IMG/VR virus record: IMGVR_UViG_3300031951_001144 | Span: 1 to 24,773 of that record | Reading direction: 5' to 3' (one strand) | Length of the DNA stretch: 24,773 bases | From: a virus | In this document: one piece after another, positions 4,567-18,526 of the stretch | Position numbering within the stretch: position 1 is the first letter of the stretch | Layout of the letters: the number at the start of each line of letters is the position of its first letter | Program-made: the position numbers and the translations under genes | Notes under the pieces: model-generated | What the model was told of the DNA's origin: nothing | The model's database searches: none | What the model saw: the letters and a program-made list of their open reading frames with translations, nothing else

Positions 4567-6311
4567 TGGCCCGCTATGAAGTCACCGGCCCCGATGGCGC
4601 AAAGTACGAAATCACAGCGCCTGACAACCTGAATGAATCTCAGGTGCTTGAGATGGTGCGCCAGCAACTAAGCGGCGCAAGCCAGCAAGCAGCAGACCGC
4701 GAACTGTATTCGCCAACTTCCGGCATGTCCGGCATTGACAAGTTTCGGGCCGGGATTGGCAAAGCATTCTCGGACACTGCGCTAGGCGTGAAACAGTTGC
4801 TAGGCATGGCGTCTGAGAAAGACGTTATAGAAGCAAGAGAGCGCGACCGCCCACTAATGCAGACGGGCGCTGGCATGGCTGGCAATGTGCTTGGCAATGT
4901 TGCGGCAACCGTTCCTATGGCGTTTGTTCCCGGCGTCAATACTATTGGCGGGGCGGCGGCCGCTGGCGCTGGCTTGGGCATGTTGCAATCTGCCGGATCG
5001 CTTGAGGAACGCGGCAAGAACGTCCTGTACGGCGCTGCAGGAGGGGCGGCTGTCCCTGCGGCGGTTACAGGCTTAAGGACTGCGAAAGCGTTTGTAGAGC
5101 CGTTTTATCAGGGCGGGCGGGAGCGGATTATCGGCAGGGCCTTGAATAGCGCATCTGGCGGGGAAGCTCCTGCAGCCATCCAGAATCTTCGGCAAGCGCA
5201 GCCGCTAGTGCCGGGGTCATTGCCAACTGTCGGAGAGGCTGCGGGCGTCCCAAGTTTGGCGGCTACACAGCGGGCCGCTATGGCGGCAAGCCCTGCGGCA
5301 ACAAATCAACTGACGGCGCGGCAGATTGCACAGAATGAAGCCCGTATTGCGGCCTTGCAGGGCGCGACACCAAACGTACCTGCAGCAAGGGCGGCACGTG
5401 AAGCTGCGGCGGGGCCGCTATACGAGCAAGCACGGCAAGCCGGGTTTGATCCTGCAGTAGCGCAAGCAATTGAGCCGCAGATTCAGGCGCTATTGGCCCG
5501 CGTACCTGATGACCTTGTGGCGCAGGCTAGGACGCTTGCACAGGTTTCTGGTGAGCCAATAACGGATATGGGGTCTGTGCAAGGGGCGCACTACCTGAAA
5601 CGCGCCATTGATGCACGAATCAATCAAGCAAGGCGCGGTGGAGACACAGACACCGCTCGGGCTTTCTCTGGATTGCAGACGGCGTACCTTGACGTACTTG
5701 ACCAACTAAACCCAACCTATCGGCAAGCGCGGCAAACATACGCGCAAATGTCTGCGCCGGTTCGTCAGGGGCAGGTAATGGAGGCCATCGGCCAGCAGGG
5801 CACGAACTTTCGCGGGGACCTGACGCCAGCGGCGTTTTCTCGGGCAGCAACGGATCGCACGGCGCAAGCTGTCACACGCAGGCCAGATGCCACGCTGGCA
5901 AACAGCCTTGACCCGCAACAGTTGCAGGCCGTTCGCAATGTCCAAGCGGATTTGCTGCGCTCTGACTATGCCAACACTGCGGGGCGCGGCGTCGGGTCTA
6001 ACACGGTGCAAAACCTCGCCTATACCAACTTGCTTGATTCTGCTGGCGTGCCGTCATGGCTGCGCGGCATGGCTCCTGCTGGCGTTGTTGGAAATGTGGG
6101 GCAGCGGTTTGGGCAGATTGCCTACAGGGATGCAAACGAGCGCATCACGGCAGAGCTTGCGGAGGCCATGCTAGACCCGCAAAGGGCTGCACAACTAATG
6201 ACCTCGGGGATGGTGACGCCACAGATGCAAGCGTTGATACAGGGCTTGAGGAGTGGCGGTGCGGCGCTAGGCGCGTCGGCTCCGGGGCTTATTCAGGCGA
6301 ACCAGCAATAG
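4566..6311 (+). CDS. DNA ejection / internal virion protein 3
   Basis: A 581-residue protein opening with 'MARYEVTGPDGAKYEITAP', a short N-terminal beta-domain common at the start of large podovirus ejection proteins. Residues ~95-165 are Gly/Ala-rich and hydrophobic, a plausible membrane-interacting region. The rest is helical and Ala/Gln-rich. It is the last of three ejection genes (T7 gp16 or P22 gp20/gp16 position). No lytic transglycosylase motif is seen. The start overlaps the previous stop (TAATG). The last ~45 bases overlap, tail to tail, a small gene on the opposite strand. Confidence 0.7.
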   Translation: MARYEVTGPDGAKYEITAPDNLNESQVLEMVRQQLSGASQQAADRELYSPTSGMSGIDKFRAGIGKAFSDTALGVKQLLGMASEKDVIEARERDRPLMQTGAGMAGNVLGNVAATVPMAFVPGVNTIGGAAAAGAGLGMLQSAGSLEERGKNVLYGAAGGAAVPAAVTGLRTAKAFVEPFYQGGRERIIGRALNSASGGEAPAAIQNLRQAQPLVPGSLPTVGEAAGVPSLAATQRAAMAASPAATNQLTARQIAQNEARIAALQGATPNVPAARAAREAAAGPLYEQARQAGFDPAVAQAIEPQIQALLARVPDDLVAQARTLAQVSGEPITDMGSVQGAHYLKRAIDARINQARRGGDTDTARAFSGLQTAYLDVLDQLNPTYRQARQTYAQMSAPVRQGQVMEAIGQQGTNFRGDLTPAAFSRAATDRTAQAVTRRPDATLANSLDPQQLQAVRNVQADLLRSDYANTAGRGVGSNTVQNLAYTNLLDSAGVPSWLRGMAPAGVVGNVGQRFGQIAYRDANERITAELAEAMLDPQRAAQLMTSGMVTPQMQALIQGLRSGGAALGASAPGLIQANQQ

Positions 6312-9082: not shown

Positions 9083-9565
9083 ATGACGTTTTCTTTGTAC
9101 GCCCGCATAGCCGCCGCTGCCCTGGTGGCGGTGTTCCTCGCGGGGACGCACTGGAAAGCCTACAGAACGGGCCAGGACGCGATTACGGCAGAGTGGCAGG
9201 CAGACATAGCCGCAAGGACAGCGCAGGCGCTGGAAGCCTCAGAAGCGGCGAGGAAGGTGGAGCAAGAGCTACAGGGCAAAGCAGACGCCATTAGGAGGAC
9301 GAAGAATGCTGAAATACAGTCTCTTAACGTGCGTGTTGGTGAGTACGCTAGTCGGTTGCAAAACCGCCCCGACCGTCCAAGCGGCGACAACATGCCCGCG
9401 CCTGCCGGAACTGGAGCAAGTGCCAGCGGCTGCACTGGAGCGGAACTATTCAAGCGAGATGGCGAATTTCTTACAGGGCTTGCTGCCGACGCCGACCGGC
9501 TCCGGATTGGGCTTGCGGCCTGTCAAGCCGCTTACAAGTCCTTGACACCAAGGGTAAACCCCTAG
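9083..9565 (+). CDS. Rz: Inner-membrane spanin Rz
   Basis: A 160-residue i-spanin. It has a single N-terminal membrane anchor (about residues 8-24, 'IAAAALVAVFLAG') followed by a long periplasmic helical, Gln/Glu/Arg/Lys-rich coiled coil (about 45-95), then a less ordered tail with 'ACQAAYKSL'. This is the usual Rz architecture: it bridges to outer-membrane Rz1 to complete lysis of Gram-negative cells. The start ATG has GAAGG seven bases upstream, inside the right arm of a hairpin. The Rz1 gene lies wholly inside it in another frame. The stop overlaps the -10 region of a strong downstream promoter. Confidence 0.85.
   Translation: MTFSLYARIAAAALVAVFLAGTHWKAYRTGQDAITAEWQADIAARTAQALEASEAARKVEQELQGKADAIRRTKNAEIQSLNVRVGEYASRLQNRPDRPSGDNMPAPAGTGASASGCTGAELFKRDGEFLTGLAADADRLRIGLAACQAAYKSLTPRVNP
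9306..9545 (+). CDS. Rz1: Outer-membrane lipoprotein spanin Rz1 (nested in Rz)
   Basis: A 79-residue frame embedded in Rz, shifted by one base. It starts at ATG with a strong AGGAGG ribosome site seven bases upstream. The product begins with a lipoprotein signal, 'MLKYSLLTCVLVSTLVGC', whose lipobox LVGC puts the acylated Cys at residue 18. The mature part is Pro-rich, as is usual for o-spanins. The embedded arrangement is well known from lambda. The stop codon TGA (9543-9545) lies within the TTGACA box of the downstream promoter. Confidence 0.88.
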   Translation: MLKYSLLTCVLVSTLVGCKTAPTVQAATTCPRLPELEQVPAAALERNYSSEMANFLQGLLPTPTGSGLGLRPVKPLTSP

Positions 9566-9570
9566 ATAAT
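9542..9570 (+). promoter_or_regulatory. Near-consensus sigma-70 promoter at the end of Rz
   Basis: A perfect -35 TTGACA (9542-9547), a 17-base spacer and GATAAT (9565-9570; five of six bases of TATAAT) face rightward. Transcription would start near 9577, after all late genes. It drives no protein gene; the first thing downstream is the inverted-repeat block and terminator at 9583-9681, implying a short RNA. It overlaps the Rz1 and Rz stop codons. The match is among the best promoter-like sequences I see in the window. Confidence 0.7.
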
Positions 9571-9575
9571 TTCGC

Positions 9576-9681
9576 TTGTCAAGTGGTACCAGCACGCGAC
9601 AATCAGAAGCCTCTAGCCTCTGCTCTCTCCCTTCATTGGGAACGTGCTGGTACCACGGAGAGCAGGAACTAGAGGTTTTTT
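9576..9681 (+). ncRNA. Candidate ~105-nt small RNA with interleaved complementary arms
   Basis: Between a strong promoter and a T-run lie three helices. Helix C: TTGTC (9576-9580) with GACAA (9598-9602), a hairpin with a 17-base loop. Helix A: a perfect 14-base inverted repeat, GTGGTACCAGCACG (9583-9596) with its complement at 9643-9656. Helix B: the terminator stem, CCTCTAG/CTAGAGG and CTGCTCTC/GAGAGCAG. The left arm of A is the loop of C, and its right arm lies in the loop of B. The two hairpin loops are therefore fully complementary and could kiss within or between molecules. Each loop also holds the self-complementary GGTACC. No protein frame fits. The RNA is predicted, not demonstrated. 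Confidence 0.6.
9610..9681 (+). terminator. Intrinsic terminator after the lysis genes
   Basis: The stem is CCTCTAG (9610-9616) with CTAGAGG (9669-9675), plus CTGCTCTC (9620-9627) with GAGAGCAG (9658-9665), separated by a 3x3 internal loop and followed by six T (9676-9681). The 30-base apical loop is unusually long and contains the right arm of an independent 14-base inverted repeat. It should end rightward late transcription. There is no T-run on the other side, so it is one-directional. Confidence 0.75.
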
Positions 9682-9732
9682 GCTTTCCGCTGTCAGGGCG
9701 CAAATTGACGCAGCTAAAGGGCCAATGTCGGG

Positions 9733-9940
9733 GCCGCACCCATATACCGATGCGCTTACTGGCAAGCCAGCGCGAGAACTTGCAGGCGGTATCTCAGGAA
9801 CAGAGCAGACGTGGTGATGTGACGACTAGCCCAACGATATAGGGCGCTCTGGAAATAGAAGCCTGACCTTATGGGTGCGGTAGTCCAACAGGATGGCCGA
9901 AGTCGGGGATATCACCCGCTTGGCTTGCCCTATGCTTCTA
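9733..9940 (+). ncRNA. Candidate structured RNA with a three-way junction
   Basis: No gene fits 9682-9973, but the sequence folds cleanly. P1 is an 11-base perfect helix, CCGCACCCATA (9734-9744) with TATGGGTGCGG (9870-9880). P1 stacks directly on P2 (TACCG 9745-9749 / CGGTA 9787-9791), which carries a hairpin (GCG, CTGG / CCAG, CGC; 9752-9773). A second arm has TCAGG/CCTGA (9794-9798 / 9862-9866), CAGAGC/GCTCTG (9801-9806 / 9846-9851) and GCCC/GGGC. A separate hairpin follows at 9896-9924. Bases 9927-9940 can alternatively pair with two sites in the second arm. Orientation is uncertain: G-U options slightly favour plus, but read-through from the leftward operon would make the minus strand. 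I do not recognise the class. Confidence 0.45.
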
Positions 9941-9973
9941 CGTAAAAGCCATCAAGCCCTAACAATTGATTGC

Positions 9974-15738: not shown

Positions 15739-16017
15739 TTAGGCTGCGAGGGTGGCGCGGGCCAGAGCGGCGGCGTACAGCGGCTGTCCGGCGAGGATGC
15801 GGGCGCGACCCTTCTCGAAATAGTCGGTCTGCGTGTCGGTGTTGTTCTCGTAGCCGTCAGCCAGAATCGCACCCAGCTTGCGGCCGTCGTCGTAGCTCTT
15901 GGCGTACAGCGTGACGCAGTCCTGGCCGGTGGTGACCATGCGGAAGGCGCTGTAGTGGACGCGGGCCTTGGTGGTGCCGTTGGTGACGTAGTGTTTGTGG
16001 AACTTGATGGCTTGCAT
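15739..16017 (-). CDS. First gene of the leftward operon, hypothetical
   Basis: A 92-residue protein from ATG 16017 with GGAGAA as ribosome site. It is beta/alpha in pattern: 'AIKFHKHYVTNGTTKARVHY' then 'QDCVTLYAKSYDDGRKLGAI' and helical C-terminal part. It is not a repressor-like HTH protein, so the usual CI position is not filled by a CI here. It is transcribed divergently from the Cro-like gene, probably from a TTGACA promoter at about 16115. Function is unknown. Confidence 0.65.
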   Translation of the reverse strand: MQAIKFHKHYVTNGTTKARVHYSAFRMVTTGQDCVTLYAKSYDDGRKLGAILADGYENNTDTQTDYFEKGRARILAGQPLYAAALARATLAA

Positions 16018-16086
16018 GCTGTTCTCCGGTGGGTTGTTTGCTGCGATGGGTGAATTCTGCGCCTGTCAACCGAGGTTTGCAAGCGC

Positions 16087-16115
16087 TATTTGTAATGCCC
16101 CTGCGAATCTGTCAA
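16087..16115 (-). promoter_or_regulatory. Candidate leftward early promoter
   Basis: On the minus strand TTGACA (16115 to 16110) is followed at 15-17 bases by a TACAAATA stretch, a partial -10. The same eight bases, CTGTCAAC on the plus strand, recur at 16063-16070, 46 bases away, giving a second TTGACA without a good -10. The copies could be tandem promoters or operator half-sites. It faces the ATG at 16017. Confidence 0.4.
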
Positions 16116-16135
16116 CTATTGTTTCTCTACCGCAA

Positions 16136-16157
16136 CATGCGTTAACATCGGCGCATG
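16136..16157. promoter_or_regulatory. Inverted repeat over the start of the Cro-like gene (operator candidate)
   Basis: CATGCG (16136-16141) and CGCATG (16152-16157) are perfect inverted repeats around a 10-base centre that holds GTTAACAT; the right arm contains the ATG of the Cro-like gene. TAACAT (16143-16148) could be the -10, placing the transcript start on the A of ATG, with TTG-like -35 bases at about 16119. No ribosome site is seen, so a leaderless message is possible. The repeat may be the Cro operator. Confidence 0.4.
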
Positions 16158-16322
16158 AACAAAGCCACAGCAATAAAGCGAGCCGGGTCTATCACCGCCC
16201 TGGCAAGCTTGCTGAATCTTACGCGGCAAGCGGTGAGCAAATGGCCTGCGGAGGTGCCGCCTCTCAGGGTCTACCAACTGCGCGAGCTTCGGCCCGAGTG
16301 GTTTGCAAAGGGAAAGAAATGA
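16155..16322 (+). CDS. Cro-like HTH repressor, 55 residues
   Basis: A 55-codon frame starting at ATG 16155 and ending TGA 16320-16322, overlapping the next ATG by four bases. The product contains 'SITALASLLNLTRQAVSKW', a textbook helix-turn-helix of the Cro/YdaS type (A-x-x-L-x-L-T-R-Q-A-V-S-x-W), and ends with 'PPLRVYQLRELRPEWF', the usual tail of these small repressors. It heads the rightward operon opposite the leftward one, exactly where Cro sits in lambdoid phages. It probably controls both divergent promoters. Another, longer reading frame passes through the same bases and hides this gene if only long frames are considered. Confidence 0.85.
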   Translation: MNKATAIKRAGSITALASLLNLTRQAVSKWPAEVPPLRVYQLRELRPEWFAKGKK

Positions 16323-18526
16323 AGGATTACGACGCATTTGTCGCAAGCAAGCGGCGATCTGAAGTTGCCACCGGCCACAAACCCGGCGCACTTAATGAGC
16401 ATCTGTTTGATTTTCAGCACGCCATTGTGTCATGGGCTATCCGTCGCGGTCGCGCTGCAGTCTTTGCTGATACGGGGCTTGGCAAGACGTTGATGCAATT
16501 GGCATGGGCTGATGACGTTGCGCGGCACACAAGCGGCATTGTGCTGATTCTTGCGCCTCTGGCTGTGTCTGAGCAGACCATAGAGCAGGGCAAGTCGTTT
16601 GGCATTGAAGTGTTCCGAGTGCCGCATGGTGAACCGCCTGCAGGGCCGGGTGTGTGGATCACAAACTATGAGCGCATGGACGCCATTGACTTTACCGAAC
16701 TGCATGGGCTGGTGCTGGACGAATCATCTATCCTGAAAGCGCACGACGGCAAGACCCGCACCAAGCTGATAGAAGCCGCGCAGGGTGTCCCGTATCGGCT
16801 GTCCTGCACTGCTACGCCGTCGCCTAACGATTTTGAGGAACTGGGCAACCAATGCGAGTTTCTCGGAGTGATGACACGCTCGGAGATGCTGGCTACGTAT
16901 TTCGTAAACGATACCGGCGATACCGGCACATGGCGTCTGAAGGGCTGGGGCGCATCTAAGTTTTGGGCGTGGATGGGGCAATGGTCTGTCGTGCTTCGCA
17001 ACCCTTCCGATATTGGATTTGATGGCTCAAGGTATCTGCTTCCGTCGCCTGAGTACGTTGAGCATGTTGTTGAAACCGACCCACTCGGGGACGATCTGTT
17101 TTCCCGGCCTGCTATGGGGCTTGCAGAGCGCCGCGTAGCTCAACGAAACAGCGTAGAAACCCGCTGCCGTGCTTTGGCTGATGTGGTTAACGCCGATACA
17201 TCAGAGCCTTGGCTTATATGGTGCCATTTGAACGACGAAGCAGAACTGCTGAAAAGCCTGATCCCTGGCAGCATCAACGTGCAAGGCTCTGACAGTGCAG
17301 AGGTCAAGACTCGCGGGATGCTGGACTTTACGCATGGCAACCTTCGAGTGCTGATTTCCAAGCCGAAAATTTGCGGCTTTGGCATGAATTGGCAGCACTG
17401 CGCACGCATGGCCTTTGTCGGGCTTGATAGCTCGTTTGAGAAGTTTTATCAGGCGGTGCGGCGGTGCTATCGCTTCGGACAAAAACGCAGCGTACAGGTG
17501 CATCTGTTTACCGCAGAGAACGAAGGGCAGATTCTTGCAGACTTGCGCCGCAAGGAAGTGCAACACCACGAAATGAGTGCGCAAATGGTCGAACACATGA
17601 AAGACATTATGAATCAGGAACTGACAGGGCAATCCAACATCGTGGAAGAGTACCGCGAAGGCACACATACCGGCGATGGCTTTACGGTGCATCTCGGTGA
17701 CTGCGTGAAATGGGCGCGGCGCATGGAAGAGAACAGCATCGACTACAGCGTGTTTTCCCCGCCGTTCGCTGATCTGTTTGTTTACTCCAACAGCGACCAC
17801 GACATGGGCAACTGCAAGGATGACGCAGAGTTTGCTGGACAGCTTCGCTTTTTGGTGGACGAGTTGTTTCGCGTATTGAAGCCGGGGCGAAATGTTTCCT
17901 TTCACTGCATGAATCTGCCGACGACAAAGATGCGGCAGGGTTTTATCGGCCTGCGGGACTTTCGCGGCGATTTGATTCGCACGTTTCAGGATGCCGGGTT
18001 TATTTACCATTCCGAGGTATGCATCTGGAAAGACCCGGTAACGGCTATGCAGCGCACCAAGGCGCTCGGACTGCTTCACAAGACCATCCGCGAGAACTCT
18101 ACGATGTCGCGCATGGGGTTGCCTGACTACGTGGTGACGATGCGCAAGCCTGGGGACGCTGCGGAGCGGGTAACGCATGGCGCCGATCTGCCGGTAGCTA
18201 TGTGGCAGAAGTACGCAAGCCCGATTTGGGACGACATCAACCAGTCGCGCACGTTGAACAAACTGCCCGCTCGGGATGAGAACGACGAAAAGCATATGTG
18301 TCCGCTGCAGCTGGATGTTATCGAGCGTTGCATTCACTTGTGGACAAACCCCGGAGAGTTGGTCTTTTCCCCGTTTACCGGGATTGGCTCTGAGGGTTAT
18401 TGCGCCGTGAAGATGGGCCGCAGGTTTGTTGGAACCGAACTGAAGCCGCAATATTGGGAGCTTGCCTGCCAGAACATTTACGATGCCACCCGCGAGCAAG
18501 TGGGGCTTTTCTCGGAGGCCGCGTGA
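16319..18526 (+). CDS. SNF2-like helicase fused to a DNA methyltransferase
   Basis: A 735-residue two-part protein from ATG 16319. Helicase part: Walker A 'DTGLGKT' (51-57), 'VLDESS' Walker B (132-137), 'SCTATPSPND' motif III (162-171) and 'QAVRRCYRFGQ' motif VI (378-388), an SNF2/SF2 pattern. Methyltransferase part: 'SVFSPPFADLF' (477-487) carries the S-P-P-F catalytic motif IV of amino-methylases (N6-adenine or N4-cytosine), and 'SPFTGIGSEG' (684-693) is the AdoMet-binding motif I. Motif IV before I indicates beta-type order. No nuclease motif is seen. The frame is open upstream of 16319, but that region codes the Cro-like protein and the ATGA overlap sets the start. A role in host-restriction avoidance is plausible but inferred. 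Confidence 0.85.
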   Translation: MKDYDAFVASKRRSEVATGHKPGALNEHLFDFQHAIVSWAIRRGRAAVFADTGLGKTLMQLAWADDVARHTSGIVLILAPLAVSEQTIEQGKSFGIEVFRVPHGEPPAGPGVWITNYERMDAIDFTELHGLVLDESSILKAHDGKTRTKLIEAAQGVPYRLSCTATPSPNDFEELGNQCEFLGVMTRSEMLATYFVNDTGDTGTWRLKGWGASKFWAWMGQWSVVLRNPSDIGFDGSRYLLPSPEYVEHVVETDPLGDDLFSRPAMGLAERRVAQRNSVETRCRALADVVNADTSEPWLIWCHLNDEAELLKSLIPGSINVQGSDSAEVKTRGMLDFTHGNLRVLISKPKICGFGMNWQHCARMAFVGLDSSFEKFYQAVRRCYRFGQKRSVQVHLFTAENEGQILADLRRKEVQHHEMSAQMVEHMKDIMNQELTGQSNIVEEYREGTHTGDGFTVHLGDCVKWARRMEENSIDYSVFSPPFADLFVYSNSDHDMGNCKDDAEFAGQLRFLVDELFRVLKPGRNVSFHCMNLPTTKMRQGFIGLRDFRGDLIRTFQDAGFIYHSEVCIWKDPVTAMQRTKALGLLHKTIRENSTMSRMGLPDYVVTMRKPGDAAERVTHGADLPVAMWQKYASPIWDDINQSRTLNKLPARDENDEKHMCPLQLDVIERCIHLWTNPGELVFSPFTGIGSEGYCAVKMGRRFVGTELKPQYWELACQNIYDATREQVGLFSEAA

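Follow-up and report, generated by a model that had tools for sequence, protein, structure and literature searches.

The locus described here appears from its sequence to be a free-standing phage RNA gene, composed of two domains behind a sigma70-type promoter, and the kissing of two hairpin loops within its first domain is essentially proven by covariation. We regard the loop pairing and the two-domain RNA as almost certain. A natural library of 30 loop pairs provides direct evolutionary evidence for the predicted tertiary contact. The loops read as a hypervariable self-complementary code, which is unexpected and directly testable, and which raises the question of why phages would diversify a sequence that must match only itself. 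If recognition between phages is true, the code would belong to an RNA immunity or timing system; if it is not, the locus would still be a strong example of covariation proving a tertiary contact. The 30 orthogonal loop pairs would in addition be ready-made parts for RNA engineering.

Layout of the RNA locus

The window, that is the whole 24,773-nucleotide stretch of DNA analysed, had been described in a preliminary description as carrying a promoter at the end of the Rz gene and a unit of about 105 nt that ends in a T6 terminator. Both were found by inspection of the sequence, and the coordinates of all features are collected in Table 1. A promoter score of at least 8 of 12 was obtained just before hairpin 1 in 22 of 29 relatives, compared with 6.6% of random sites. 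The predicted fold of element 1 has an energy of -45.7 kcal/mol, against -28.8 kcal/mol for dinucleotide shuffles, none of which (0/200) reached it. The T tract is weaker in five members (L004, L098, L233, L100 and L358).

Table 1. Features of the RNA locus and its immediate surroundings in the window.
Feature	Position	Strand	Basis and remarks
Rz spanin, upstream neighbour	9083..9565	+	PHROG Rz-like spanin; 3' part apparently arrived with the RNA cassette (comparison with L083/L084)
Sigma70-type promoter TTGACA-17-GATAAT	9542..9570	+	within the Rz 3' end; matches consensus at 11/12; TTGACA 9542-9547, N17 spacer, GATAAT 9565-9570
Element 1, RNA of about 105 nt: 5' hairpin and long terminator hairpin	9577..9681	+	fold z = -4.8; homologues at related loci
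Hairpin 1 (5' hairpin), TTGTC-AA-GTG(GTACCAG)CAC-GC-GACAA	9576..9602	+	fold and loop covariation; kissing loop 1 at 9586-9592
Terminator hairpin, arms 9605-9627 / 9658-9680, T6 at 9676-9681	9605..9681	+	fold
Small inner hairpin TCCC-TTCATT-GGGA at the terminator apex	9628..9641	+	fold; counterpart in most members
Hairpin B, CGTG(CTGGTAC)CACG, at the terminator apex	9643..9657	+	fold and loop covariation; kissing loop B at 9647-9653
Element 2, 5' part: two small hairpins, ~9698-9711 and ~9720-9735	9690..9749	+	by eye in alignment
Element 2 core, conserved structured RNA domain	9750..9933	+	CM match, 169.7 bits
Rz 3'-end remnant from an L083-like ancestor, ACGTAAAAGCCATCAAGCCCTAACAAT, behind the RNA	9940..9966	+	sequence comparison

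Two 14-base arms, GTGGTACCAGCACG at 9583-9596 and CGTGCTGGTACCAC at 9643-9656, had been pointed out as perfectly complementary, and so they are; by a rough estimate, about 1e-5 perfect 14-nt inverted repeats would be expected by chance within about 105 nt. They had also been placed in the loop of the 5' hairpin and in the terminator loop; in the minimum free energy fold each arm appears as a hairpin of its own (for loop 1 the local hairpin 9583-9595). The arm consists of a 7-nt loop, complementary to the 7-nt loop of the partner, and of GTG/CAC ends, which also pair inside each hairpin. Because the arm length is that of the loop plus its closing stems, a 7-bp kiss and the full terminator can coexist. 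The earlier view that both helices cannot easily form in one molecule was thus wrong, since loops of 6-7 nt can kiss with both stems closed.

Element 1 makes up just the 5' half of a conserved RNA locus that continues to about 9933. Directly downstream of it lies element 2, a noncoding stretch of about 240 nt (~9690-9933). In its core, 9761-9770 is predicted to pair with 9920-9929, and there are further covarying helices and a pseudoknot. RNAalifold likewise gave a long-range helix, GGCAAGnC/GnCTTGCC, with compensatory changes, together with further helices. Helices C, D and E of element 2 covary in segment tests (0/10000 each), and since C and E interleave, the domain is pseudoknotted. No promoter-like site was seen between the two elements, so element 2 seems to be reached only by read-through of the terminator.

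The first relative to be found, L004, keeps the loop core, has entirely different stems that are yet paired, and shares a second stretch downstream. The element 2 signature GCGCTTACTGGCAAG led to 23 loci in a first scan, and a wider scan with nhmmer brought the number in related phage contigs to 82; each phage record examined has one copy. Directly upstream of almost every one of these loci we found a promoter, a 5' hairpin and a long terminator hairpin, usually with a T tract, and at most of them the loop sequences differ from those of the window. Three loci are arranged differently: in L103 (2402-2597) and L150 (5472-5664) element 2 has a short 5' part and no long terminator hairpin, and on the reverse strand of L191 (~2813-2980) an extra stretch with inverted repeats at its bounds is inserted between the two elements.

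Covariation of the two loops

We catalogued 30 distinct loop pairs, every one an exact reverse complement. The loops are 6-11 nt long, lie in a nearly constant frame and are 47-94 nt apart. The stem finder misplaced the terminator in several members, and the loops for this list were therefore curated and checked by script. When loops were swapped between 17 members, the mean pairing of a loop with its own partner was 8.4 bp and with swapped partners 4.7 bp, and none of 20000 permutations reached the observed sum. The preliminary description would have been contradicted by arms that vary in related phages without compensation; the arms vary with compensation, except in three divergent members (L126, L128 and L158), in which no convincing loop pair was found.

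The pairing was also examined in set A2, 20 closely related RNAs of one clade. The kissing helix shows changes on both sides at 6/6 pairs and is paired in 99.2% of cases, while 15 of the 18 pairs of the terminator helices are invariant. No shuffle out of 500 matched the covariation, and when the structure was shifted by 1-3 columns, pairing dropped to 37-47%. Single steps of such change can be seen in individual RNAs: element 1 of L415 differs from that of L382 solely by two compensated loop pairs, and in L129, L154 and L167 one central kissing pair differs, being T-A, A-T and C-G, with unrelated sequence flanking loop B. A contig of a bacterial genome, G079, from the same order as the Burkholderiales genome G001, has the loops CTCGCAC/GTGCGAG in an RNA that otherwise resembles that of the window.

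It could be argued that the complementarity arose by mutation and not by selection, through template switching between inverted repeats (quasipalindrome correction), as the arms are short inverted repeats that change together. Against this, the pairing is confined to the hairpin loops and a few closing bases, and in L129, L154 and L167 the central pair alone changes between unrelated flanks of loop B; we find this origin very improbable. Still less credit can be given to an element acting at the level of DNA, with the repeats as operators for a protein or as a recombination site and the RNA folds as incidental. The TGGTACCA of the window's loop type is indeed a palindromic DNA site, yet the 30 loop types have no sequence in common, the features that are conserved are the hairpins, the terminator and the promoter spacing, and the helices of element 2 covary as RNA. 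The variety of the loops thus largely refutes it. The self-complementarity of GGTACC, to which attention had been drawn earlier, holds for the window's loop type, but none of the 30 catalogued loops contains a 6-nt palindrome, and dimerisation through this motif is therefore not conserved.

Distribution and genomic setting

In searches with Rfam 15, neither the window nor nine related loci gave a match at the gathering level, and E-value searches gave none either. Among the individual models, those of IsrK, SeqA-CI and C4 had no gathering-level match in the window and the nine loci, and those of GOLLD and ROOL had no match in the window or related loci. No match was obtained with blastn in the isolated-phage collection using six queries (the window and five relatives), an exact search of viral contigs for the window's 12-base arms found none, and a tRNA/tmRNA search was also negative. 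The element 2 model was run against 768 bacterial genomes and gave one true match. It lies among the 399 genomes of the order of G001; among the 369 genomes of the class of G003, a gammaproteobacterium, there was no true match, the sole one listed spanning 40 nt and being judged false. A pattern scan of bacterial genomes yielded nothing but chance matches among those listed, and two candidates from it, L285 and L288, were rejected on inspection. In the literature we found no paper on this RNA. Judged by sequence, this RNA family is uncatalogued in the libraries searched and present in dozens of environmental phage contigs.

On its plus strand the window carries amidase-like, tail, holin, endolysin and Rz genes, and also genes for a helicase-methyltransferase, a primosomal protein and a terminase; Erf and nin-like genes are on the minus strand (holin and nin are our readings of the sequences). 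The helicase-methyltransferase is a single frame of 843 aa at 15995-18526 that matches families of DNA helicases and of DNA methyltransferases, possibly a fusion. By holin and Rz, the nearest relatives of the window are L082-L084, which either lack the RNA or end before reaching it. A remnant of the Rz 3' end of these relatives lies directly downstream of the window's RNA, which indicates that the RNA came as a cassette together with a new Rz 3' part.

In most relatives the order is nin genes, RNA, and terminase or late genes, all in the same orientation; the nin neighbours read as NinB and NinG-like HNH proteins. In other relatives the RNA comes after a head gene, a terminase, Rz or a Cro-like gene, or has an integrase gene nearby. 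Co-oriented downstream or late genes follow the terminator in most members, the window and L098 being exceptions. In the window, where the downstream gene is convergent, the RNA does not obviously act as a leader.

Two contigs contain kissing units in other surroundings. L089 has two, at 2423-2522 and 2787-2872, with different loop pairs and without element 2; an open reading frame begins right after each of them, an arrangement like that of a leader attenuator. On the reverse strand of L092 (~5575-5700) a kissing unit is followed by a third loop, GGAGGTACCAGCTCC, immediately before an ATG; the gene 3' of it reads like a DnaB-type helicase, and the order is that of seqA-seqB-seqC of P4.

These positions bear on the earlier suggestion of a multimerising packaging RNA of the phi29 type, for which we found no support. 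In such a case, loop 1 of one copy would bind loop B of the next to form a chain or ring, perhaps for packaging or as a scaffold. The geometry of the complementary loops would allow it, the RNA adjoins terminase genes in several phages, and the large phage RNAs GOLLD and ROOL do multimerise via kissing loops (PMC12286853). On the other hand, other members lie near integrase genes or follow Rz or cro-like genes, and close relatives whose terminases or lysis genes are similar do not have the RNA (a phage whose terminase is 65% identical to that of L154 is without it). Nor are hypervariable codes predicted by structural multimers, and we consider this explanation improbable.

Loop variability, possible action and known systems

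The per-site divergence in set A2 was 0.395 for the loops, 0.377 for the unpaired linker, 0.107 for element 2 and 0.033 for the rest of element 1. The kissing loops are thus shown by the alignment to be among the fastest-changing parts of element 1, with complementarity still perfect. In L371, L373, L387 and L414 element 2 is identical (0/186 differences) and is preceded by four different codes, CTGGCA, CGGCAA, GTGCAA and CAGCAA. For three codes, one phage has as loop 1 what another has as loop B, and vice versa (L191/L404, L374/L410 and L233/L406), which would in principle let these RNAs pair with each other. Elsewhere on the same strand of the sampled loci, the arms matched 12 and 16 sites where 12.8 and 13.0 were expected; as there is no excess, neither loop has an evident partner apart from the other. 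Near element 1 no third, seqC-like loop site was found in the main family, L092 alone having one, and a second copy of loop B after the terminator in L208 and L181 was dismissed as chance, because their relatives are without it. A specificity code would be expected to give such a loop pattern, which may also have come about by compensatory drift or by recombination among phages.

Our leading proposal is that the loop code is used in trans and in a type-specific manner, to which we assign a probability of roughly 0.4; action in trans is inferred solely from the hypervariability of the loops. Most transcripts would end at 9681 as a short RNA; the remainder, a minority, would continue into element 2 and any genes downstream. 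By kissing of loop 1 and loop B, both in cis and in trans, the short RNA would make contact with other copies of the same RNA. This type-specific contact would adjust read-through of the nascent transcript or the way in which it folds, and loop pairing may control the terminator. The loops would then serve as a self-recognition code, comparable to the RNAs that determine plasmid incompatibility and to the RNA immunity factor of P4, for timing that depends on the number of copies or for defence against superinfecting phages of the same type. A caveat for reading the loops as a code is the unpaired linker, which changes just as quickly. A narrower version, which we think rather unlikely, is an RNA code for self and non-self with both halves of a hypervariable lock and key on one transcript. 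Only phages with the same code would recognise each other's nascent RNA and alter its termination, a code would be switched by paired loop changes with the rest of the RNA fixed, and the phages would fall into RNA-based superinfection groups.

The trans code is closely rivalled by a purely intramolecular fold, to which we give slightly less than an even chance. Loop 1 would fold back on the terminator apex of the same molecule, shaping the RNA or delaying or permitting termination in cis, and the loops would drift since only their pairing matters. Kissing within one molecule is favoured by proximity, the partners being close together, and could be the whole story. For the window, a rough estimate makes the combined length of hairpin 1, the kiss and hairpin B similar to that of the terminator stem, and the two could therefore lie side by side. 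The lack of extra target sites in the sampled loci and the co-orientation of the RNA gene with downstream genes in most members also agree with it. It fits less well that all six kissing pairs change on both sides while nearly all of the neighbouring stem pairs are unchanged, that codes differ between phages with identical element 2, and that loops and unpaired positions change at about equal rates, where a drifting paired helix should change more slowly.

Several known systems can be compared with the phage RNA. The packaging RNA of phi29 is part of the DNA-packaging motor and multimerises through interlocking loops. It shares loop-loop complementarity within one RNA species with the RNA described here, which differs in having no evident link to a packaging motor, in the ordinary terminases of its carrier phages and in its unconserved position. 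In lambda, the pR'-tR' late leader has a constitutive promoter and a terminator at the nin/late boundary and gives a short RNA (6S RNA). The promoter and terminator at this boundary, the predicted short RNA and possible read-through into late genes are alike; the kissing loops and element 2 have no counterpart there, our RNA is not fixed in position, and the window has no co-oriented gene close behind it. We know of no description of the loops of GOLLD and ROOL as a hypervariable code. Both are large, structured phage RNAs with no assigned function that have pseudoknots and covarying kissing loops (PMC12286853). The RNA described here resembles them in these features, whereas they form much larger multimeric cages and ours is without an Rfam match.

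The best parallel in layout is offered by IsrK and P4 SeqA-CI, which our RNA resembles, while their defining features fail. At the IsrK locus of Gifsy-1, one phage promoter gives a short terminated RNA and a read-through transcript, on which the short form acts in trans, and isrK adjoins a Q-like antiterminator; in P4, the pairing RNA SeqA-CI promotes termination and keeps the replication genes off in the lysogen (PMC4825925). In these systems the two transcripts of one promoter interact, and their pairing governs termination or translation. The order of promoter, short terminated RNA and further RNA on the predicted read-through is common to nearly all members. In our case, however, the pairing partners sit within the same short RNA, and element 2 is a predicted pseudoknotted RNA and not orf45 or anrP. 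Nor is element 2 a convincing antisense of element 1: the longest complementarity between them averaged 7.7 nt for own and 7.1 nt for swapped pairs (7/5000 permutations), a weak effect with no long antisense stretch.

In specificity, the best parallel is probably plasmid RNAI. In kissing RNAs of this type (ColE1, pT181, IncI/IncK RNAI) the loop sequence sets specificity and small changes create new compatibility groups, and pT181 is a transcription attenuator with a kissing hairpin (PMC10724649, PMC3753616). Short hairpins with complementary loops are found in both. The phage RNA differs in that both loops are on one strand within about 105 nt of a single transcript, with no antisense gene overlapping its target, and in that it has no replication primer or rep mRNA. 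By kind, this previously uncatalogued family belongs with the phage and plasmid kissing RNAs.
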